A stretch of DNA of 64,000 bases from Sycon ciliatum (taxonomy: Eukaryota > Porifera > Calcarea > Leucosolenida > Sycettidae). How positions within the stretch are numbered: the stretch's first letter is position 1; the number at the start of each line of letters is the position of its first letter. Position numbers and translations under genes: made by a program. The stretch lies in NCBI RefSeq assembly GCF_964019385.1, contig NC_088655.1:5249458-5313457 (forward strand), written 5' to 3'. The notes under the pieces were generated by a model. That model worked only from the letters and a program-made list of their open reading frames with translations. It did not search any database and was not told the DNA's origin. Positions 22,559 to 47,110 of the stretch are shown here, in pieces.

Positions 22559-22936
22559 TTAATGATCTGCTGGATTTTCTGCAGTGGGTACATAACGCCA
22601 CTGTGATGGATGGGTGGATTCCTGAATGTACGCAACACGATTTCCCACGAAGGTCTTCAGTTTTCGACTTGCTCCACGTATCCAATGTAGGACGTCCTGG
22701 CTGTCGGTCCAGAAGACGACTGATGTGGAGTGACTGAGTGCTTTGATGATTGGTTTCACTAGGTCTACACCAGCTACTGCGGCGAGCCACTCCAATCTTG
22801 GAATGCTGGTGGCGGTGGTTGGCGCGACTCTGCTCCTTGACATTATGGGTCGGCATGACACTGTCTCGTCTCTGTTCATCACTCGATAGTACAGTATGCT
22901 ACTGCTCCTTAGGCATCCTGTGAGACATCGGCGAAG
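22559..22936 (-). pseudogene. BEL RNase H segment
   Basis: The region starts immediately left of the minisatellite with HIFADVSQDA followed by a nonsense codon, then GAVAY. It shifts frame and continues SRSRVAPTTATSIPRLEWLAA, FWTDSQDVLHWIRG and VPTAENPADH. These are the Asp-bearing RNase H motifs of BEL elements. The upstream partner, the RT C-terminus, is 9.7 kb away at 32610, so the 13-bp array lies at the RT/RNase H junction. Confidence 0.85.
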
Positions 22937-22949
22937 ATATGCACCTATG

Positions 22950-23359
22950 TAGTCAGTGTATGTACTCAGTGTATGTACTCAGTGTGTGTACTCAGTGTGT
23001 GTACTCAGTGTGTGTACTCAGTGTGTGTACTCAGTGTATGTACTCAGTGTGTGTACTCAGTGTGTGTACTCAGTGTATGTACTCAGTGTATGTACTCAGT
23101 GTATGTACTCAGTGTGTGTACTCAGTGTGTGTACTCAGTGTGTGTACTCAGTGTATGTACTCAGTGTGTGTACTCAGTGTATGTACTCAGTGTGTGTACT
23201 CAGTGTATGTACTCAGTGTATGTACTCAGTGTATGTACTCAGTGTGTGTACTCAGTGTGTGTACTCAGTGTATGTACTCAGTGTGTGTACTCAGTGTGTG
23301 TACTCAGCGTGTGTACTCAGTGTGTGTACTCAGTGTGTGTACTCAGTGTGTGTACTCAG
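22950..23359 (+). repeat. 13-bp minisatellite, block 1 (~31 copies)
   Basis: Tandem units ACTCAGTGTRTGT, R being A or G. All three plus-strand frames stay open and give a 13-residue repeat (VLSVCTQCVYSVC), which explains long artificial ORFs. It lies directly against BEL pol on its left and RLE copy A on its right. Confidence 0.97.
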
Positions 23360-25606
23360 CACAGCGTTTGGGGACATTTCAGACGACCTATGTGATGCTC
23401 TCGCCAGCTGTGCCCGGCGAATCGCCACTCAGTACGTCAACCCAGCATCGATGGAAGCCTACACGGCATGCCGGCTTATCCCTCTAGATAAGAAACCGGG
23501 TGTGCGCCCAATAGGCATCGGTGAAACCGTCCGTCGTATCATCGGCAAGGCTATTCTGAGCGTGGCGGGGGACTCTGTTCGTGAGGCGACAGGGTCACTG
23601 CAGATGTGCGGAGGCCAGGAATGTGGCATTGAGGCGGCCATTCACGCCATGCACGACACGTTCCATGAAGAAGATGTTGACGCTGTGCTTATGGCGGATG
23701 CATCCAATGCGTTCAATCGCCTTAACAGAGAAGCATGTATGCGCAACGTAGCGCACCTCTGTCCAGCCATCACATCCGCTATCGTAAACTGCTACCGTCA
23801 GCCGGCCCGCCTATTCGTGGACGGGGAGTGCCTCCTATCGCGAGAAGGCACAACGCAGGGAGATCCTCTTGCTATGCCGATGTACGCTTTGGGGGTACTC
23901 CCCCTGGTGCGCAGAGTGGCAAGCCCAGGAACACGCCAGAGCTGGTATGCGGATGACTCGTCCGCGGATGGCGGGCTCAACCCTCTCCGCCAGTGGTGGG
24001 ACCGACTCGTCGGGGATGGGCCGGCGTTCGGGTATTTCATTAACCCCAGCAAGTCCGTCCTCGTCGTCAAGCGGGACAAGCTAGAGGCAGCCGACACCAT
24101 CTTCGCCGGCACGGGTGTGTCTATCACCACTGACGGGTGCCGTCACCTTGGATCAGCCATCGGAACTGATCAGTTTGTGCAGGAGTTTGTGGCTTCCAAG
24201 GTGGCCACCTGGTCGCAGGAGCTGTGCAAGCTGACAGATTTCGCCCGGTCACAGCCTCAAGCAGCTTACTCTGCACTGGTGAACAGCCTCCAACACCGGT
24301 GGTCCTTCCTGTGTCGGGTTCTCGATGGTGCTGCAGAACAGCTGGCACCCCTGGAGGACATCATCCACCGCCGCCTAATCCCTGCCATTAGTGGACGGAC
24401 GGCGCCCAGTGAAGCTGAACGCATTTTGCTCACTTTCCCCTGCCGGCATGGAGGCCTCGGCGTGGCCAACCCTGCCACTTTTGGCTCACAGTACGGCACC
24501 TCCAGGCTAATCACCACTGCGCTGTACGACAAGATCATGGCGCAAGAAGAGCACCTCGATGATGCTCTTGCCTGTGTCCGCAGGGCCAAGAGTCAGGCTC
24601 GCTCTGAGGCCAGAAAGGCAATGAAGATAGCTGCCGATACGTTCCGCACCGAACACAGCGAACTCGATCTCGCTATCAGTCTGGCAGAGGAGAAGGGAGC
24701 ATCAAGCTGGCTTACCTGCCGACCCATCGCTCGCCACGGCTTCGCTTTGTCGAAGGGGGAATTCCGGGATGGCCTCTGCCTCCGTTACGGTTGGACGCCT
24801 GCTCGCCTGCCCACCACCTGTGTTTGCGAGAAGGCATTCACCACTGCTCACGCCTTGTCCTGTCCTTTCGGTGGGTTCCCCTCGATCCGCCACAACGAGG
24901 TGCGCGACATACTGGCAAGCTCATTGAAGGGTGTCGCCCACAACGTCGCAGTGGAGCCACATCTCCAACCCCTGACTGGGGAGCCGTTTCAGCTCCGGTC
25001 ATCATCAACCGAGGATCAAGCTCGTTTGGATGTGGTGGCCAGTGGAGTTTGGGGGGGTCGGTTCGAACGCACTTTTATTGATATACGGGTGTTCAACCCT
25101 TATGCGTCTTCGAACCGCACCTCCTCTCTCTCTGGCTGCTACCGGCACCATGAGCAAGAGGAACGGCGTCGATATGATTGGAGAGTCCGAGAAGTGGAGC
25201 GATCCACTTTTCTCCCCTTTGTGCTCTCTTCCACCGGAGGATGCGGCAAGGGTGCCGCTGCACTGGTGAGCCGGATTGCACATCTCCAGTCGCTACGTGG
25301 GAGGGAGGCGTATTCTGTGCTAATTGCCCACCTGCCCTGCTGCGCTCGAGTGTCATGTGTCTGCGTGGGGCTCGCCGAGTTTGGCAGCCTCCAATGGATG
25401 GCTGTGCCTCCCTGGCTGTCGTGGAGGCTAGGGTGTCCCGTTGAGCCTTGCCCCGTGATTGTGCGGACTATGCTATGCTTCTCTTGCTGTCTGATCACAT
25501 GCGACGTCATCATTATGTGATTTGTTTTCAATCCTCCGCCATGGCAAATTGTGTTTTGTTCGCCCGTAAAAGAGGCTTTTACTACTACTAAAAAAAAACA
25601 AAAAAA
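23360..25606 (+). mobile_element. RLE-type non-LTR retroelement copy A, 5'-truncated
   Basis: It begins abruptly after ...TACTCAG inside the RT coding region and keeps the complete 3' end, finishing with an A-rich tail (AAAAAAAAACAAAAAAA). The minisatellite then resumes with ACTCAG, so ACTCAG is present at both junctions. 5' truncation plus an A-rich tail is the signature of target-primed reverse transcription. Confidence 0.88.
23361..25520 (+). pseudogene. RT-RLE protein of copy A, N-terminally truncated
   Basis: The open frame continues from the minisatellite without a stop, but only the part after 23360 is element sequence. RT motifs are GVRPIGIGETVRRIIGKAIL, DASNAF (motif A), QGDPLAMPMY (motif B) and WYADDSS (motif C). 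The endonuclease region has CVCEKAFTTAHALSC (CxC...H...C), RHNEVRDIL, ARLDVVASGVWG and FERTFIDIRVFNP, matching the zinc motif followed by a restriction-like PD-(D/E)xK core. The frame drifts off homology after about 25260, where a frameshift is likely. The closest relative here is copy C. Confidence 0.88.
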
Positions 25607-26077
25607 ACTCAGTGTGTGTACTCAGTGTATGTACTCAGTGTAAGTACTCAGTGTGTGTACTCAGTGTGTGTACTCAGTGTATGTACTCAGTGTGTGTACT
25701 CAGTGTGTGTACTCAGTGTGTGTACCCAGTGTGTGTACTCAGTGTGTGTACTCAGTGTATGTACTCAGTGTATGTACTCAGTGTGTTCACTCAGTGTGTG
25801 TACTCAGTGTATGTACTCAGTGTATGTACTCAGTGTGTGTACTCAGTGTGTGTACTCAGTGTATGTACTCAGTGTATGTAGTCAGTGTATGTACTCAGTG
25901 TGTGTACTCAGTGTGTGTACTCAGTGTGTGTACTCAGTGTATGTACTCAGTGTATGTACTCAGTGTGTGTACTCAGTGTGTGTACTCAGTGTATGTAGTC
26001 AGTGTATGTACTCAGTGTGTGTACTCAGTGTATGTACTCAGTGTATGTACTCAGTGTATGTACTCAGTGTATGTACT
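25607..26077 (+). repeat. 13-bp minisatellite, block 2 (~36 copies)
   Basis: The same ACTCAGTGTRTGT unit, with rare variants (TAAGTACTC, GTTCACTC, GTAGTC). It resumes right after the A tail of copy A. Confidence 0.97.
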
Positions 26078-27032
26078 TCAATCAATTCTCAGTGACCTGC
26101 CACAGCTCGAGGAGCGCACCCTCTCCCGCATCGTACGGGGAAATGCCTCCGGATGGCTTACGGTGTTGCCCCTGAAGCGCGAGGGGTATGATCTGTCGAG
26201 TACAGAATTCCGCGATCAACTTGCTATCCGCTATGGTCGGCAGCCGCTTGCCCTGCCAGCGCAATGTGAGGGTTGCGGGAAGCCTTTCTCTCTCCAGCAC
26301 GGCCTTGACTGCCCGAAAGGTGGACTTATCAAGCGAGTCCACAATGATCTGCGTGATAGCGATGCAAAGCTAGCTGATATGGCATTCGGTGGTGTTGTCG
26401 TCGAGCCGATCATGGTGCCGGAGGGTGATCGGACGGGGCAGCCTGCTCTTCGGGCAGATTGGCTTGCCCGGGGTGTGTGGGAGGATAACAGGGTGGCGTT
26501 TTTTGATAATCGCATCATTGATGCCAACGCACCCAGTTACTCCCATTCATCCTGGGAAGCTACTTCCAACCGCGCTGCTAACGCGAAGAAAAAGAAGTAT
26601 CGTCAGGCCTCCGAGGACCTCCGTGGGTCGTTCACACCACTGGTTTGTTCCACGGATGGGGTGCTACATCGCGAATACGCCAGCTATCAGAAGCGACTTG
26701 CTGGTCGCCTCGCCCTCAAGTGGGACAAGCCATTTTCAATCATCATGGCTTGGGTGCGAGTTCGCAGCCAATTTGCAGTGATCCATGCAGTCGACCTCCG
26801 GCTACGCGGGTCTAGAAGGCGCCTGACAGGCCTGTCGACGCAGGATGGTGCTGGGGTAGGCATTGGCTATTGAAAACTGAATTCCGTCTGTTTTACGTGG
26901 AATTTCTTGGAGTTTCCCAATGTATTGTACTCGAATAAAATTCTATTTTAACTTTCATGGTATCTCAATTTTTTTCACGTCTACATGACTTTATTTTGCC
27001 CGTAAAAGAGGCCGTTACCCCGTAAAAAAAAA
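26078..27032 (+). mobile_element. RLE-type retroelement copy B, 5'-truncated, diverged subfamily
   Basis: It keeps only the RLE half: EKG-like region (LSRIVRGNASGWLTVLPL), zinc motif CEGCGKPFSLQHGLDC, RADWLARGVW and FFDNRII. It ends in GCCCGTAAAAGAGGC and an A9 tail before the array resumes at GTGTATGT. Coding stops at about 26873. It is clearly diverged from copies A and C in protein sequence yet shares its 3' terminal motif with copy A. The start at 26078 follows ...ATGTACT of the array. Confidence 0.85.
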
Positions 27033-27235
27033 GTGTATGTACTCAGTGTATGTACTCAGTGTATGTACTCAGTGTATGTACTCAGTGTATGTACTCAGTG
27101 TGTGTACTCAGTGTGTGTACTCAGTGTATGTACTCAGTGTGTGTACTCAGTGTATGTACTCAGTGTATGTACTCAGTGTGTGTACTCAGTGTATGTACTC
27201 AGTGTATGTAATCAGTGTATGTACTCAGTGTATGT
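27033..27235 (+). repeat. 13-bp minisatellite, block 3 (~15 copies)
   Basis: The same unit, mostly the GTGTATGT variant; it is interrupted by copies B and C. Confidence 0.97.
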
Positions 27236-27311
27236 TTTCGAGCTCTGTAGTTTTCTGTGGATTTTCAGGCCTCAGCGCGTCTCTCGTGCAAGCCCACTGA
27301 TGCAGAGTGCC

Positions 27312-28078
27312 ACTTGTTGCCGGTGCAACGGCAATAGATATCCTTAGCTAAAAAAACGCTAACGTAAACGCAAAACTTTCCGTACTTCGGATCGTTCAAG
27401 CTGACTTTTCCCTTAGCACAAAGTACGTTATAGTTGAGACGAAGTAGTCGTGACAACCATGGCGATATGAATTTTCGTGGAAACAGATGCGGGAAATTCA
27501 AAATTTTGAACCAGGGATTAGTTTGCTCTCGTTCTGAAAGAATACCTTGGCGAGGTCTTTTACTCTGGAATAGCAAAAGCACGGCGAAAATGAGTTTTCG
27601 CTGTTCCCAGGTCCTTGGAAACCCTTTCCTAAACGCAGCACCGAAGACTGTAAGGGTTCTCCAGCTCCAGCACGTCTGGGAGAGGCCGATGAATTTCTTC
27701 CTCAGGAGTGCCGTGGAACTGGTCCTTTGTTTCCCAGATGGGATAGAGGGGAAAGGCACGAAGCAGAGGACGCAGAAATTGTCAACTGAAAGGCAAAACT
27801 CCCCAAAAAAGCTAAATGTCACAAGAGGAAGCAATCTCGACTCTCGATCTCATCTCGATCTGCACGACGTGCTTTTCATCTCCCGCCAGTTACAAAACAA
27901 TGCGAGTTTTTGCATTTTTTTGCAGAATTTCCATAACGAACGTCGGCCCGTTATTTTGAGCTCTGTAACGTTTTTCCGTTATCCGATAACGTCTTTTGTC
28001 ACGGCTGGGAGTGAGTACCGTAAAGGTTAGCGTTATCGTACTTTTGCTAAGGATGTCTATTGGCACCTGCGTTCGGTG
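27312..28078. repeat. inverted repeat inside the 5' region of copy C
   Basis: GGCAATAGATATCCTTAGC near 27329 and CGCTAACGTAAACG near 27357 are answered in reverse by CGTAAAGGTTAGCG near 28019 and GCTAAGGATGTCTATTGGC near 28046. The right arm overlaps the first codons of the ORF. It is either a MITE-like insertion or a structured 5' end. The enclosed ~650 bp has no recognised coding. Confidence 0.6.
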
Positions 28079-31000
28079 TGAATGCAAGAAGGAGGGCCGC
28101 GAGTGTCAGAATTGTCTCCCAGGAAAAAAAAAGCAGATGCCGAAACAACAGCCCCTCGACATCCCAACCGTCACCCGTACCCGTAGCAGTGACAGATACA
28201 AGCACATGCACCGACAACCAACCGTCATCCTCAGTAGCCACCCCGGAAGAGCTGGTAGCTGCTGCACTCACTGAAGCCCTGCTCACGGAATGCCGAAACC
28301 CGACATCCACAGGACCACCAACGGCACCATGCTCACAACCTGGTCAGGTAGCTGCCACCACCTCCAGTGACGTCAATAGGGTTGACCTGCATGCCATGCC
28401 TGTGTCGAGCTCTCAACAACTAGCATGGGACATACTGGACCAGCAGCATGCAGCAAGCATCAGTGCCACATATCGAGTTGACAGTAATGACGACACCCTA
28501 GGGCATGATGCAGAGTTGCTGGCCAACCTAGCACAAAGCCAATCTGTTACTGAGGAGCCCCAAGCACCGGATCCAGCCCAGCTCCCCCCATATCTGGAAG
28601 CAAATTGCAACATCACAGTTGGGACCCACGATTCAAACTCGTCTGCACAAATTGTAGATGCTGTATATGAAGAAGTGGTGCATTTTAGGCCTAACCTACT
28701 TTTCCTCCCTTCCGGGTCAGTCGGATCAAAGTTTGTGAAGCTCCTTGCAACACTCTACAAACAGTTTGGTGACAAATGTGCAGGTGAAGGCAAGTCTCTG
28801 AAAGCAGCTGCAGTGGCCACTCAGCTGCTCCTGCAATGTCCGCACCGCTCTGCAACCAGACAGGAGCACATCACCTGTCTACAGCGCCGCATGCTACTCT
28901 GGGAGGAAGGCAACATCAACGAACTGATGATAGAAGTCCGGACTATCCAATCTCTAGTGCAATCTTCCACAGCCTTCCAAGGCAAGGCTCAGCCGCAGGA
29001 CCAAGCTCGTACCTTTGCCAACCTCATCACCACAGGCAAAACCAGTGCTGCAATCCGCACGTTGTCTGAAGACCAGAAGGGCGGAGTACACTCCGTGGGC
29101 ACCACCATCAATGGCCAGACAGTTCTGGACATTCGCAAGAGCAAACACCCTCCCGCGGCACCAGCAAATGCGACGGCGATGATTACAGGAGATGTCCCTC
29201 CGTCACCGCATCCAGTTCTCTACTCCAGCATCACCCGGGAGGCCATACGCGAGGCAGCCCTCCACACACAAGGTGCTGCAGGACCCTCTGGACTAGACGC
29301 TGCGTCGTGGCGCAGAATGTGCACAGCTTTTCACGGAGCATCTGATGACCTCTGCGATTCACTGGCCAGCTGTGCCCGCCGCATCGCCTCGTCCTATGTT
29401 GACCCCACAGCATTGGAAGCTTTCTTGGCCAGCCGCCTCATACCACTAGATAAACAACCGGGTGTCAGACCGATTGGGATCGGAGAAGTGGCCCGTCGCA
29501 TCATCGGGAAAGCCATCCTGCGATGCGCCTCATCTTCAATACAAAAGTCAGCTGGCTGCCTACAGCTATGTGCGGGTCAAGAGTGTGGCATAGAAGCAGC
29601 AATACATGCTATGCAAACAGCATTTCAGGAAGACGAGGCGGAAGGCGTTCTGTTTGCAGATGCGTCAAACGCATTTAACTCCCTTAACCGTGCTGTCTCA
29701 CTGCACAATATCCAGCACACCTGCCCCACCATTGCTCCGGCACTGATCAACAGCTACCGCAGCCCGACTCGGCTGTTTGTGGATGGTGAATGTCTCCTGT
29801 CTTGTGAAGGCACCACGCAGGGAGATCCACTAGCCATGGTTATGTATGCCCTGGCAACCGTTCCTCTCATCCAGGAAGTGTCTCAGAGCGGAGCACTCCA
29901 GTCGTGGTATGCAGACGACTCCACTGCCGCTTCCACCATTCGAAAGCTGCATCACTGGTGGTTACTGCTTAAGCAACGAGGCCCAGCATATGGGTACTTC
30001 CCCAATGATGCCAAGTCGGTTCTTGTTGTGAAGCCGGAGCATCTTCAGGAAGCAGAATCCCTGTTTGCTGACACGGCAGTCCAGATTCGCACGGATGGCT
30101 GGCGGCATCTCGGTGCGGTACTTGGGTCTCCCGAATTCTGCAAGCAATATGTCACAGAGAAGGTAGAGACATGGGCGCTAGAGGTTGGACGACTGGCTGA
30201 CTTCGCCACCACTCGGCCACAAGCGGCATACGCTGCTTTTATTCATGGCCTCCGCCACAAGTGGTCGTTTGTGGCCCGGACGGTCCCAGGCATCAGCGGA
30301 CTGCTAGACCCGCTGGAGCACTCCATCCGACAGCGGTTCATCCCTGCTCTAACCAGTCGCCCCGCACCTGGTGACGAAGAGCGCGCCATACTGTCCCTCC
30401 CGTGTCGAGAAGGTGGTCTTGGTCTCATTGACCCGAGGTCTTTGACGGACCAATACAATATGTCTGTCGCTGTCACCAACATCCTCGTGAGCCGGATACT
30501 GGACCAAGATACCAACATGGACGAAGTGCCCACCACCATCCATGCTGCCAAGCTAACTGCAGCAGCAGCAACCAGGAGAGCCGCTCGAAACCAAGCCAGT
30601 CAGCTCTTGGCCACATGTGATGCGCCCACCCAGCGAACCCTGGGGATGGCGGCCGAGAAAGGAGCGTCCAACTGGCTCACTTACCGGCCCCTGAAGCAGT
30701 TCGGGTTTGTCCTCCACAAAGGCGCCTTCAGAGACGCACTCTGTCTGCGGTTCGGCTGGGTCCCTCCCCGCCTGCCATCCACTTGTGTGTGTGGCAAGGC
30801 ATTTAACACCAGCCATGCTCTTTCGTGCCCAACTGGTGGATACCCGGCTCTCCGCCATAACACGATCCGCGACCTGACAGCCGACCTACTGCGTGAAGTG
30901 GCAACGGATGTGAAGATAGAACCTCCTCTGCAGCCCCTGGAGGGTGAAAGGCTCCGGTATCGCTCTGCCATCTTGGAAGATGGTGCTCGTCTTGATGTGG

Positions 31001-31437
31001 CGGCATCTGGTGTCTGGGGAAGTCGTTTTGAGCGCACGTTCTGTGATGTTCGGGTTTTTAACCCTCATGCGCGCTCGAACACTTCCTCAACTCCTGCGTC
31101 CACCTATGCCAAGCACGAACAGCAGAAGAGAAGGGCCTACGAAGAACGCGTCAGGGAGGTGGAGCATGCTTCCTTTCTCCCACTGGTATTCAGTGCATCT
31201 GGTGGGTGCGGCAAGGTAGCCCACGCTTTCCTGAAGCGTCTTGGCCATATGGTTTGGGAGAAGTGGCATGAACTCTACTCCTCCGTCATGTCCTGGATCC
31301 GCTCTCTTGTCTCCTTTGCTTTGGTTCGATCCTGCAACATGAGCCTCCGTGGTCACCGTGCTTCTCCCTACCGCAGTCGTTTGGATGCTGCCACTCCTGT
31401 TGTGCTGGCAGTCAACGACTGTCAGTTGCGTGACTGA
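28053..31437 (+). CDS. RT plus restriction-like endonuclease protein of copy C
   Basis: The ATG at 28053 opens a short frame with a Cys-rich motif (CVRCECKKEGRECQNCLPG). An A9 run at 28124-28132 then shifts to the main frame, open to 31437 (>1,100 residues). RT motifs: GVRPIGIGEVARRIIGKAIL (~470), DASNAFNSLNR (~535), TQGDPLAMVMY (~585) and WYADDSTAA (~618). The endonuclease end has CVCGKAFNTSHALSC (~910), RHNTIRDL, ARLDVAASGVWG (~978) and FERTFCDVRVFNP (~992). By family knowledge it nicks the target and primes cDNA from it. The long low-complexity N-terminal third is unassigned. Apart from the A9 run it looks intact. Confidence 0.85.
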
Positions 31438-31574
31438 GACTCTTGCGGAGTAGCCGTGTCTAGCCACACTTTTTATTATCCGATGATCTTGTTTTGTTTG
31501 CTATGACTCCGTGATTTTCTGTTGGTTGCTTTTCTGCTGTGCGAATAAATGCAGTGTCGACAGTCGGGAAAAAA

Positions 31575-31797
31575 ACTCAGTGTATGTAGTCAGTGTATGT
31601 ACTCAGTGTGTGTACTTAGTGTGTGTACTCAGTGTATGTACTCAGTGTGTGTACTCAGTGTATGTACTCAGTGTATGTACTCAGTGTGTGTACTTAGTGT
31701 GTGTACTCAGTGTATGTACTCAGTGTGTGTACTCAGTGTATGTACTCAATGTATGTACTCAGTGTATGTACTCAGTGTATGTACTCAGTGTGTGTAT
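31575..31797 (+). repeat. 13-bp minisatellite, block 4 (~17 copies)
   Basis: ACTCAGTGTRTGT units with some TACTTAG variants, between the A tail of copy C and the next insertion. Confidence 0.97.
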
Positions 31798-32548
31798 TTT
31801 AAATTATTATTATTATTTCACAATCAAAATGACATAGTGCCAATAAGCATGTGATGCGGGCGATTTTAACCAGCCATGGTGAAATAAATACAGTAAACAG
31901 TACTAGTAATCAAAGTAGTGGTTGCGACTTCGGCGATGATTTGTAAGAAAGGGTTTGCTCCCCACACCGAATAGCGCGAGCTCCGGTGTGGGGAGCAAAC
32001 CCTTTTTTAGTACTAGTAATCAATCAGTAAAATGCAAAGAAACCGCTAGAAGCAGTATGCGTAGTAGTCTATGGCCAAGATACCAGAAACCATATCAAAC
32101 TCAGCACGGGGGTCGAGGTACTAAAACGACTACCAAACTAAGTCAAGGATTGACCATTACATGCTGCATTCTGCCACTGCTAACGTGATCGAAGGGCAGC
32201 CGTTGATTCTTGACGCTTTGTGCCGATGACCTCTCAGGACTGTGACTGCGGCATTGACCAGCGCAAAAGACAGTTGAGTGCGGATGTATGCCATGACGAT
32301 AAAGGCTCGGACCTCTTATCGGCCAACATGGATGCAATCCGAGCGTAGAGATTGCCAGCTGCCTTGCCATGACCACCTGTGGTGTTGAGCATGACCGGGA
32401 TGAATGATCCGTGCTCTACCTCAACGACTCTTCTCTCATAACTTCTTCTCTTTTCCTTTTCGTGCTTGTGGTACACTACCGGGATTGATGACTTTTGGTT
32501 TGAGGGGGCAAATGGGTTGAAAACCCGGACATCAAGGAATGTCCTCTC
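31798..32548 (-). mobile_element. composite insertion: LINE 3' tail plus RLE copy D (minus strand)
   Basis: Minus strand 32548-32234 encodes ERTFLDVRVFNPFAPSN, KHEKEKRRSYERRVVEVEHGSF and GGHGKAAGN, the C-terminal end of the RLE protein family. It is cut at the nuclease core, so this is a 5'-truncated copy in the opposite orientation to A-C. At 31800-31895 lies a minus-strand LINE 3' end with (ATT)n, nearly the same as 46979-47060. A perfect hairpin (AAGGGTTTGCTCCCCACACC and complement, 31951-32008) and a 15-bp direct repeat AGTACTAGTAATCAA (31899 and 32010) lie between them. Confidence 0.75.
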
Positions 32549-32553
32549 AAAAA

Positions 32554-32608
32554 GTGTATGTACTCAGTGTGTGTACTCAGTGTGTGTACTCAGTGTGTGC
32601 ACTCAGTG
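32554..32608 (+). repeat. 13-bp minisatellite, block 5 (~4 copies)
   Basis: The last units of the array, ending ACTCAGTG directly against BEL RT coding sequence (CCTACTTGG). Confidence 0.95.
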
Positions 32609-32609
32609 C

Positions 32610-33215
32610 CTACTTGGATGATGCTTGTTGGGTGCACCACGGAATCCGAACTGCGGCTAGCGCTGGCAGTTCCCGAAACCACTGCTGGGCTGTTGCAACT
32701 ACATTAGCTGGTAGGGGATCATCCCAGTCATACATGTCGAGCCACATCTGTTGAAATAGCATTTTGGCTCGCACCACAAATGGAGTGAGGAAGCCCAGTG
32801 GGTCAAAGAGCTTAGAGATTTTCCGAAGAAACAGACGTTCGGTCATAGCTTGCTCCTCTGAAACCTTGAAGGTGAACTCATCTTGCTTTGCCTCCCAGAG
32901 TATTCCAAGCGTTTTCACTGCTGGTAACTGCTCCGAGTCAAGTTCCAATTGAGAAGCTCTGTCTTCTTGGAAAACTTGAGCCAAGACGTTAACGGAGTTG
33001 GTGAGCCATTTCCGTGGGTGCATTCCGGCAGATGACCACAATATTGATAGTTGGGAGTGTAGTAACTTGCCTTCATCATAATCACTGGCTGAAGTCATGG
33101 TATTATCCATGTAGTTCGAATTCAAAACTACTGCGGAAGCCAGTGGTAGATCATCAGCACATTGCCTGGCATGCTCTTGTGTTACGTACTGTGCGAGAAA
33201 TGGAGGTGCTGACAA
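32610..33215 (-). pseudogene. BEL reverse transcriptase, palm/thumb part
   Basis: The minus-strand frame reads APPFLAQYV, then the catalytic box as YMDNTM instead of YMDDTM, LGILWEAKQDEFTF and KISKLFDPLGFLTPF. It ends RIPWC...ASSK at the edge of the 13-bp array. The second catalytic Asp is Asn, so this RT would be inactive even without the breaks. It is out of frame with the preceding RT segment near 33220. Confidence 0.88.
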
Positions 33216-33222
33216 AGACCAC

Positions 33223-33710
33223 TCAGTTGAATTCGTATACCGTCAGCGGTTGTGTTGATCCTGGTTCTCGCCATAGGAATCGGTGATATGCTCGATCCGT
33301 CTCTGGAATGGCAATCTGTAGACACCTTCCTGCAATATCACAGACCACTGCCACAGGTTCCTTCCGAAACCGTAGAAGTACCTGTGTTAAGTTGCGTTGA
33401 AGCTTGGGTACGGGACTGATGGCACTGTTTAGTGATACTCCTGAGACTTGTGCTGCAGCATCAAATACAATTCTCACTTTCGTCGCTTCCCGGCCCATTT
33501 GTTTAATTGGGAAGTGCGGCAGATACCATCCGGTTTGCTTGTCGTCCGGTTTTACTTCTGAGATACATCCAAGTTTTCGGTAGCGATTGATTGTGTTGCT
33601 GTACTGTGTTGCAGACATTCAGCAAGCGTTTCCCGGTGGGACCTAGTCGCTTAAGGCCATGTTGTAGCTGCTCTGTAGCTTTGCCGGGTCAGATTTCCAT
33701 GTTACACCCA
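33223..33710 (-). pseudogene. BEL reverse transcriptase, fingers part
   Basis: Minus strand 33618-33223 shows GWYLPHFPIKQ, TKVRIVFDAAA, SLNSAISPVPKLQRNL and VAVVCDIAG, the start of a BEL RT. In other frames 33710-33620 continues the upstream linker (DGKYTV, ALKRLG), broken by frameshifts. To the right it runs into the 9-bp array. Confidence 0.85.
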
Positions 33711-33723
33711 CAGTGTATTTCCC

Positions 33724-34786
33724 ATCTGTATCATCTGTATCATCTGTATCATCTGTATCATCTGTATCATCTGTATCATCTGTATCATCTGTATCATCTG
33801 TATCATCTGTATCATCTGTATCATCTGTATCATCTGTATCATCTGTATCATCTGTATCATCTGTATCATCTGTATCATCTGTATCATCTGTATCATCTGT
33901 ATCATCTGTATCATCTGTATCATCTGTATCATCTGTATCATCTGTATCATCTGTATCATCTGTATCATCTTTATCATCAGTATCATCTGTATCATCTGTA
34001 TCATCTGTATCATCTGTATCATCTGTATCATCTGTATCATCTGTATCATCTGTATCACCTGTATCATCTGTATCATCTGTATCATCTGTATCATCTGTAT
34101 CATCTGTATCATCTGTATCATCTGTATCATCTGTATCATCTGTATCATCTGTATCATCTGTATCATCTGTATCATCTGTATCATCTGTATCATCTGTATC
34201 ATCTGTATCATCTGTATCATCTGTATCATCTGTATCATCTGTATCATCTGTATCATCTGTATCATCTGTATCATCTGTATCATCTGTATCATCTGTATCA
34301 TCTGTATCATCTGTATCATCTGTATCATCTGTATCATCTGTATCATCTGTATCATCTGTATCATCTGTATCATCTGTATCATCTGTATCATCTGTATCAT
34401 CTGTATCATCTGTATCATCTGTATCATCTGTATCATCTGTATCATCTGTATCATCTGTATCATCTGTATCATCTGTATCATCTGTATCATCTGTATCATC
34501 TGTATCATCTGTATCATCTGTATCATCTGTATCATCTGTATCATCTGTATCATCTGTATCATCTGTATCATCTGTATCATCTGTATCATCTGTATCATCT
34601 GTATCATCTGTATCATCTGTATCATCTGTATCATCTGTATCATCTGTATCATCTGTATCATCTGTATCATCTGTATCATCTGTATCATCTGTATCATCTG
34701 TATCATCTGTATCATCTGTATCATCTTTATCATCAGTATCATCTGTATCATCTGTATCATCTGTATCATCTGTATCATCTGTATCA
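33724..34786 (+). repeat. 9-bp minisatellite (TGTATCATC)n, ~118 copies
   Basis: 1,063 bp of almost perfect TGTATCATC, inserted in the gag-protease/RT linker of the BEL element; the adjoining element codons (GATACAGATGGGAAA on the minus strand) look like the seed. The period is a multiple of 3, so frames stay open on both strands (poly-VSS, YHL, IQM), but these are not genes. A distinctive double variant, TTTATCATCAG, occurs at 33969 and 34725, exactly 756 bp (84 units) apart, so growth included duplication of a large block. Confidence 0.97.
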
Positions 34787-46978: not shown

Positions 46979-47110
46979 ATAATAGTAATAATAATAATTC
47001 CACAATCACGATGACATAGTGCCAATAAACATGTGATGCAGGCGATTTTAACCAGCCATGGTGGGGAAAACTGAGAATAAACAGGAGAAAAGATAACACT
47101 GAAAACAAAA
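46979..47110 (-). mobile_element. LINE 3' end fragment with (ATT)n tail
   Basis: On the minus strand this ends in AATTATTATTATTACTAT. The sequence ATGACATAGTGCCAATAAAC and GGCGATTTTAACCAGCCATG is nearly the same as 31810-31880 and related to the 3' end of LINE copy 1 (2920-2975). It is a short 5'-truncated copy. Confidence 0.8.

Follow-up and report, generated by a model that had tools for sequence, protein, structure and literature searches.

Four R2-type retroelement families within one 13-bp minisatellite of Sycon ciliatum and a motif preference suggested for one of them

The stretch of DNA analysed here, referred to as the window, comprises 64,000 nucleotides of the calcareous sponge Sycon ciliatum (contig NC_088655.1, here C14, positions 5,249,458 to 5,313,457, forward strand). 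Between window positions 22948 and 32608, Tandem Repeats Finder (TRF) delimits a 13-bp minisatellite in five blocks, separated by four inserts that encode a reverse transcriptase (RT) and a restriction-like endonuclease (RLE) of the R2 type, or the remains of such proteins. The array amounts to about 1.4 kb in total and hosts four retroelement copies, designated A to D; its unit is matched 101 times with at most one mismatch, whereas shuffled sequences give 0.34 matches on average and 2 at most. The insert coordinates agree with the initial annotation, which had placed four copies bordered on both sides by the array. The features of this region are as follows.

22948..23359, plus strand: 13-bp block 1 (TRF), unit ACTCAGTGTRTGT, about 31.7 copies
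23360..25606 (about), plus strand: element A, a 5'-truncated RT-RLE retroelement (RT, CCHC, RLE) with a poly-A tail
25607..26077, plus strand: 13-bp block 2 (TRF)
26078..27031 (about), plus strand: element B, strongly 5'-truncated (CCHC and RLE only), with a poly-A tail joined at the 3' junction to GTGTATGTAC
27032..27235, plus strand: 13-bp block 3 (TRF)
27236..31574, plus strand: element C, the longest copy (RT and RLE), with a poly-A tail and both ends at a unit boundary
27332..28062, no strand assigned: insert bounded by inverted repeats in the 5' part of C; it interrupts the Cys-rich N-terminus of that element
28051-31437, plus strand: open frame of element C, 1128 aa
31575..31796, plus strand: 13-bp block 4 (TRF)
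31797..32552 (about), minus strand: element D, a 5'-truncated RLE copy with a TAA-rich 3' tail
32553..32608, plus strand: 13-bp block 5 (TRF)

The architecture attributed to these elements from the sequence alone, an RT joined to a zinc motif and a restriction-like nuclease, is supported by fold matches to R2 and by conserved RLE catalytic residues. The LINE-type reverse transcriptase (LINE, long interspersed element) that characterizes RLE-encoding retrotransposons without long terminal repeats (LTR) is present: RVT_1 is detected in C at E=5.5e-8 and in 18 of 20 aligned sequences at E values up to 0.1. A single-sequence search of PDB gave no hit; in the profile search the top PDB matches are three R2 chains, aligned over the RT part, and when a predicted structural model is compared by fold, R2 structures likewise rank best across the RT, the linker and the nuclease. 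The RLE region of this model has the secondary-structure order H523-539, E543-547, E574-577, E586-594, H606-629 and E632-639. In the alignment, the conserved RLE columns correspond in C to R935 and H936, D982, D999, K1026 and Y1030, as judged against the motif description in PMC5678591; inspection of the RLE alignment by eye did not reveal the GXW motif that this description also names, and in the window copy of A the catalytic lysine is replaced by glutamate. The relatives P0016, P0031, P0043 and P0068 have a Cys-rich N-terminus, the region that in C is divided by the 0.7-kb insert, whose ends are 21-nt inverted repeats (27332-27352 and 28042-28062, 90% complementary). The hallmarks of target-primed reverse transcription (TPRT), namely a poly-A or simple 3' tail and variable 5' truncation, are found as well: tails occur at A, B and C and at 32 of 40 fetched 3' stretches, and the matches of individual copies begin at many query residues. 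No array peptides were seen among the repeat peptides of 120 listed relatives, and a protein database search for array-RLE fusions by array peptide returned 2953 unscored candidates.

Protein identity is 53% between A and C, 33-34% between B and either of them, and 51-52% between D and A or C over about 85 aa, so that A, B, C and D represent four different families rather than the colony of one element. This divergence rules out amplification of a single insert as the origin of A, B and C, for which the initial claim of separate insertions holds; it does not extend to D, which is duplicated together with the array in a second copy of the region on contig C3. The junction phase within the 13-bp unit, read by eye, is identical for A and C (both T/ACTCAG, the slash marking the join), while B and D differ. 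Despite their protein identity of 33%, A (25530-25606) and B (26985-27031) have in common a 3' untranslated motif, GCCCGTAAAAGAGGC, directly before the tail, which possibly serves both as an RNA recognition element. A stretch of about 75 bp from the 3' end of D is found again at window positions 46988-47063 with 89% identity and no RLE coding sequence nearby, possibly as a short interspersed element or a short 3' copy sharing the D tail.

Families A, B and C are young and dispersed in the genome. Copy numbers for A and C are lower bounds, and B was counted by exact patterns of its 3' end. Family C has at least 17 copies at 94% identity or more, on eight contigs, and family A at least 36 at the same threshold, the window copy of A being 97-98% identical to 33 of the other 35 listed; in each family a single listed copy (1/17 and 1/36) lies in the 13-bp array. 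Family B has many copies and 101 exact 3' ends, of which 100 were listed, and among the listed copies and ends only that of the window is in this array. The exact junction AAAAAACTCAGTGTRTGTA, in which a poly-A tail is joined to ACTCAGTGTRTGTA, occurs twice in 538 Mb, both times in the window (A and C). One A copy (L055) and one C copy (L038) appear by eye to have joined a dispersed repeat at the same point, TTCAAAACTATAGACGCGT; a search for this site as a target shared by A and C gave a single exact match, at the A copy. Among the 32 other flanks read, no ribosomal DNA (rDNA) was recognised by eye, and no rDNA search was made.

To describe the insertion sites outside the window, 3' stretches were read for 16 C, 12 A and 12 B copies, the C set consisting of all other listed copies at 94% identity or more and the A and B sets of the next 12 in rank. 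Counts use copies with a visible tail only, which removes L044, L046, L047 and L052 from C (no tail read), L063 from A, and L067, L075 and L076 from B; at L067 an array was seen and the junction was not. Tandem arrays are found at 5/9 B flanks (units of 34, 27, 38, 18 and 14 bp; P=8e-4), compared with 9-10% of random positions when the same script is applied to a 200-kb sample of C3. The corresponding values are 3/11 for A (12-, 24- and about 20-bp units; P=0.08) and 2/12 for C (12- and 38-bp units; P=0.33), neither of which is significant, and 10/32 for the three families pooled (P=6e-4). The C value is 1/10 by script and 2/12 by eye, because L043 (array) and L045 (no array) were missed by the script and added by eye. 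The B value leaves aside L077, L078, L080 and L081, which had been picked as neighbours or as a truncated copy; with L077 and L080 included, the script gives 7/11. In the C3 sample, tandem arrays with a period of at least 4 and a length above 60 bp cover 19,576 bases.

A six-base motif is enriched at the B ends. Measured from the first six A of the tail, ATGTAC lies at a distance of 4-30 nt at 38/101 B ends, against 1.4 expected, and at 28/84 of those that were unseen when the motif was proposed. Read by eye, it starts 4-6 nt after the tail in 5/13 B junctions versus 10/7146 background positions, and TGTA lies within 14 nt in 9/13 versus 6.3% of the background. The reverse complement, GTACAT, is present at 25 B ends, all 25 of which also carry ATGTAC, and none has GTACAT alone; since 13 ends carry ATGTAC without GTACAT (in one case at the outer limit of the gap scanned), ATGTAC in the direction of the element looks like the core and the palindrome like an extension. 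In the random sample, arrays are not richer in this motif (1/227 array positions versus 34/7146 overall), and at least one B site outside any array (L072) has ATGTAC at the usual spacing.

Family B also recurs in close pairs in arrays elsewhere. At C7:4689204/4690282, two B copies occupy one 27-bp array in the same phase, the first array stretch extending to where the second copy, truncated at about residue 102, begins. At C14:4190742/4191725, the tails of two B copies face each other, separated by about 50 bp of repeated sequence, and at C3:10.598/10.601 Mb two copies are each followed by the same 14-bp unit; the B locus at C3 10.60 Mb has a segmental duplicate at 10.37 Mb. Among the 100 listed B ends, six pairs lie within 3 kb of each other, against 0.06 expected under uniformity, one of the pairs being a segmental duplicate. 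Two same-strand pairs of B 3' ends, C1:70537129/70537244 (115 bp apart) and C2:30469945/30470339 (394 bp apart), are possible additional colonies. At C1:61.039-61.045 Mb, an A-family and a B-family copy lie tail to tail within about 3 kb. Of the A and C copies read, the majority are located in dispersed or unrelated sequence. In a comparison of 12 A, 13 C and 13 B junctions, those of the window included, 9/25 A and C junctions start with CT after the tail, against 8.8% of the background (P=2e-4, post hoc), so that these two families have at most a weak A/CT preference.

The array and its inserts sit within an LTR element of the Pao type, where they interrupt Peptidase_A17 between profile positions 71 and 95. 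Three further features belong to this host element.

22559..22951, minus strand: Pao element, C-terminal part of Peptidase_A17 (profile 95-162; Pfam PF05380, E=4e-12)
32610..33242, minus strand: Pao element, N-terminal part of Peptidase_A17 (profile 1-71; Pfam PF05380, E=1e-14)
33723..34786, plus strand: 9-bp minisatellite in the same Pao element (TRF), unit CATCTGTAT, 118 copies

No RLE match was found in the 9-bp minisatellite (33723-34786), of which only about 155 bp are present in the C3 paralog. This second copy of the region (C3, 37.99-38.01 Mb) shares the Pao flanks and the array with the window, which it resembles piecewise from 19175 to about 50584, mostly at 91-97% identity; this identifies a duplicated segment and not merely a retrotransposed Pao. 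A left-flank probe allowing up to 3 mismatches detects six loci in all: C3:38.01 Mb and, on C14, 5.27 (the window), 7.03, 7.42, 8.30 and 8.82 Mb. The segment with Pao flank, 13-bp array and D is thus found five times out of six on one contig (C14, 5.2-8.9 Mb). The 5' junction of D is detected at 8 places covering all six loci, two of which have it twice. D thus pre-dates the duplications and was copied together with the array. At the other five loci, A, B and C are absent from the lists of best-scored matches (first-look candidates scored in the three family searches: 64/7908, 66/7230 and 145/5497), and none of them occurs in 60 kb read around the C3 copy. At 7.42 and 8.82 Mb, about 1 kb separates the flank from the 5' end of D, and as D itself is expected to occupy about 0.75 kb of this, A, B or C would not fit in. 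Exact 26-mers of the array are found outside the window 147 times in forward and 292 times in reverse orientation, with C3 accounting for 118 of the reverse matches; the remaining forward ones presumably lie at 7.42, 8.30 and 8.82 Mb. In a written comparison of the unit variants of the window and C3 arrays, no shared register was seen by eye.

Taken together, these data favour a reading in which four dispersed R2-type families landed independently in one minisatellite, B guided by a motif and A and C opportunistically, to which we assign a probability of roughly 0.55. Judging from the anatomy of the copies, the RLE would nick the target and the poly-A tail of the element RNA would prime on the nick, with 5' truncation as a common outcome. 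B would recognise a short motif with the core ATGTAC, often 4-6 nt beyond the insertion point; arrays with ATGTAC in their unit, such as the present one (GTATGTACTC in A-type units), would offer many sites and take repeated hits, while A and C, with at most the weak A/CT preference, would use the array as it comes. The nicking specificity, the role of the motif rather than the array as the cue, and the explanation for three families occupying one array are inferences. The more specific proposal that the B endonuclease reads the near-palindromic ATGTAC, often extended to ATGTACAT, and colonises minisatellites that contain it, with A and C sharing this more weakly, is tentative and in our estimate falls just short of even odds.

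Several observations weigh against this reading. No exact ATGTAC is present in the scanned gap at 63/101 B ends, and 4/9 ranked B flanks are not arrays; motif and spacing were first noticed in the same junctions, and segmental duplication accounts for some of the B ends (C3 10.37/10.60 Mb). Random arrays contain TGTAC about six times as often as the sample overall (34/227 versus 176/7146), so that a preference for arrays and one for the motif can be told apart only in part. The array background was estimated from a small number of arrays on a single contig (C3), and 5' flanks outside the window are represented by one stretch (L079), which is non-array and possibly still element sequence. Finally, A and C are not significantly enriched in arrays, and their joint presence with B at this site is therefore unexplained by any measured target preference.

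The most serious alternative dispenses with targeting altogether: RLE elements would insert anywhere, nested insertions would be tolerated in a degenerate Pao element, and the cluster would reflect survivorship in permissive DNA. Most A and C copies read do lie outside arrays (8/11 and 10/12), the 4 clear RLE fragments and 2 short N-terminal bits of the random 200-kb sample are by eye all outside arrays, and tandem arrays make up about 10% of that sample in any case. That three RLE insertions fall within 1.4 kb is still improbable, yet the site was chosen because it is striking. The ATGTAC and array enrichment of B and the recurrence of B pairs in other arrays speak against this explanation, and we regard it as unlikely.

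A second alternative holds that B, and perhaps the other families, prefers arrays in their own right, because of their chromatin, an unusual DNA structure or stalled replication, with ATGTAC as a by-product of array composition. The TGTAC excess in random arrays and the array enrichment of the pooled flanks (10/32) are in its favour; against it, ATGTAC at 38/101 B ends contrasts with 1/227 positions in random arrays, and the motif is found at the non-array site L072. We consider this explanation distinctly improbable and favour the motif, rather than the array, as the cue for B.

Two further proposals fare considerably worse. Arrays could be produced by insertion itself, if target-site duplications or template jumps seeded repeats that expanded later, and arrays and inserts do amplify together, as seen for D with the array in C3 and for the two D junctions at C14:7.03 Mb. 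However, C3:38.0 Mb has the array but none of the elements A, B and C, and the same is seen in part at C14:7.03 Mb; the array thus pre-dates A, B and C, and this origin is very unlikely. Slightly less credible still is the 13-bp minisatellite as the dedicated target of an RT-RLE family, the view of the initial annotation, which inferred that the array is the preferred site and would be a new target class. The four copies in about 1.4 kb of array and the identical T/ACTCAG joins of A and C speak for it. Against it stand the genome-wide placement of the listed A, B and C copies, all of which except those of the window lie outside this array, the six paralogous loci detected by the flank probe, five of which lack A, B and C in the scored lists, and the differences in junction phase between A/C, B and D, which belong to four different families. 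Nor do most of the copies whose flanks were read lie in one simple repeat at a constant phase, the pattern expected of a repeat-specific RLE element and foreseen by the annotation; the units differ from flank to flank. The proposal is accordingly rejected for the 13-bp unit, and array targeting survives in a generalised form for B alone, with arrays of varied units and ATGTAC. An assembly artefact joining unrelated contigs via the 13-bp repeat can practically be dismissed: tandem arrays are misassembly hot spots, but the Pao gene continues on both sides, flank and D recur at six loci, and the 3' joins have the poly-A tails that retrotransposition predicts.

RLE elements generally use fixed targets, such as rDNA, snRNA, tRNA and microsatellites; the target of Dong, for example, consists of TAA repeats. 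The R2 elements with known structures (Bombyx, Taeniopygia and Platysternon) show only 14-16% identity to those described here, and R2 resides in 28S rDNA whereas the window copies are in a 13-bp array. The CCHC knuckle between RT and RLE reads CX1CX7HX3C in C and CX2CX7HX3C in B, as opposed to the CX2-3CX7-8HX4C spacing of RLE elements. No literature on minisatellite-targeting RLE elements was found by title and the start of the abstract. According to PMC4640811, Togen is (TG)n-specific and some HERO families are microsatellite-specific; like these and Dong, the present elements are RLE elements in simple tandem repeats. Unlike them, B is flanked by arrays with units of 4, 13, 14, 18, 27, 34 and 38 bp and in some cases by non-array sequence, and most A and C copies lie outside arrays. 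RLE families that lack target specificity, R2NS among them, are described in PMC5035012 as having young dispersed copies with dissimilar flanks. A and C resemble them in being young and dispersed with dissimilar flanks, while B differs in keeping a measurable motif preference, and A and C in their weak A/CT bias. If the proposed preference is correct, an RLE family aimed at a six-base motif concentrated in various minisatellites would stand between elements with a strict target site and those that insert at random. Such a family would offer a tractable case of broadening RLE specificity and would explain retroelement colonies in fast-evolving repeats. Family B is best read as a variant of the known microsatellite-associated RLE elements and not as a 13-bp-specific class.

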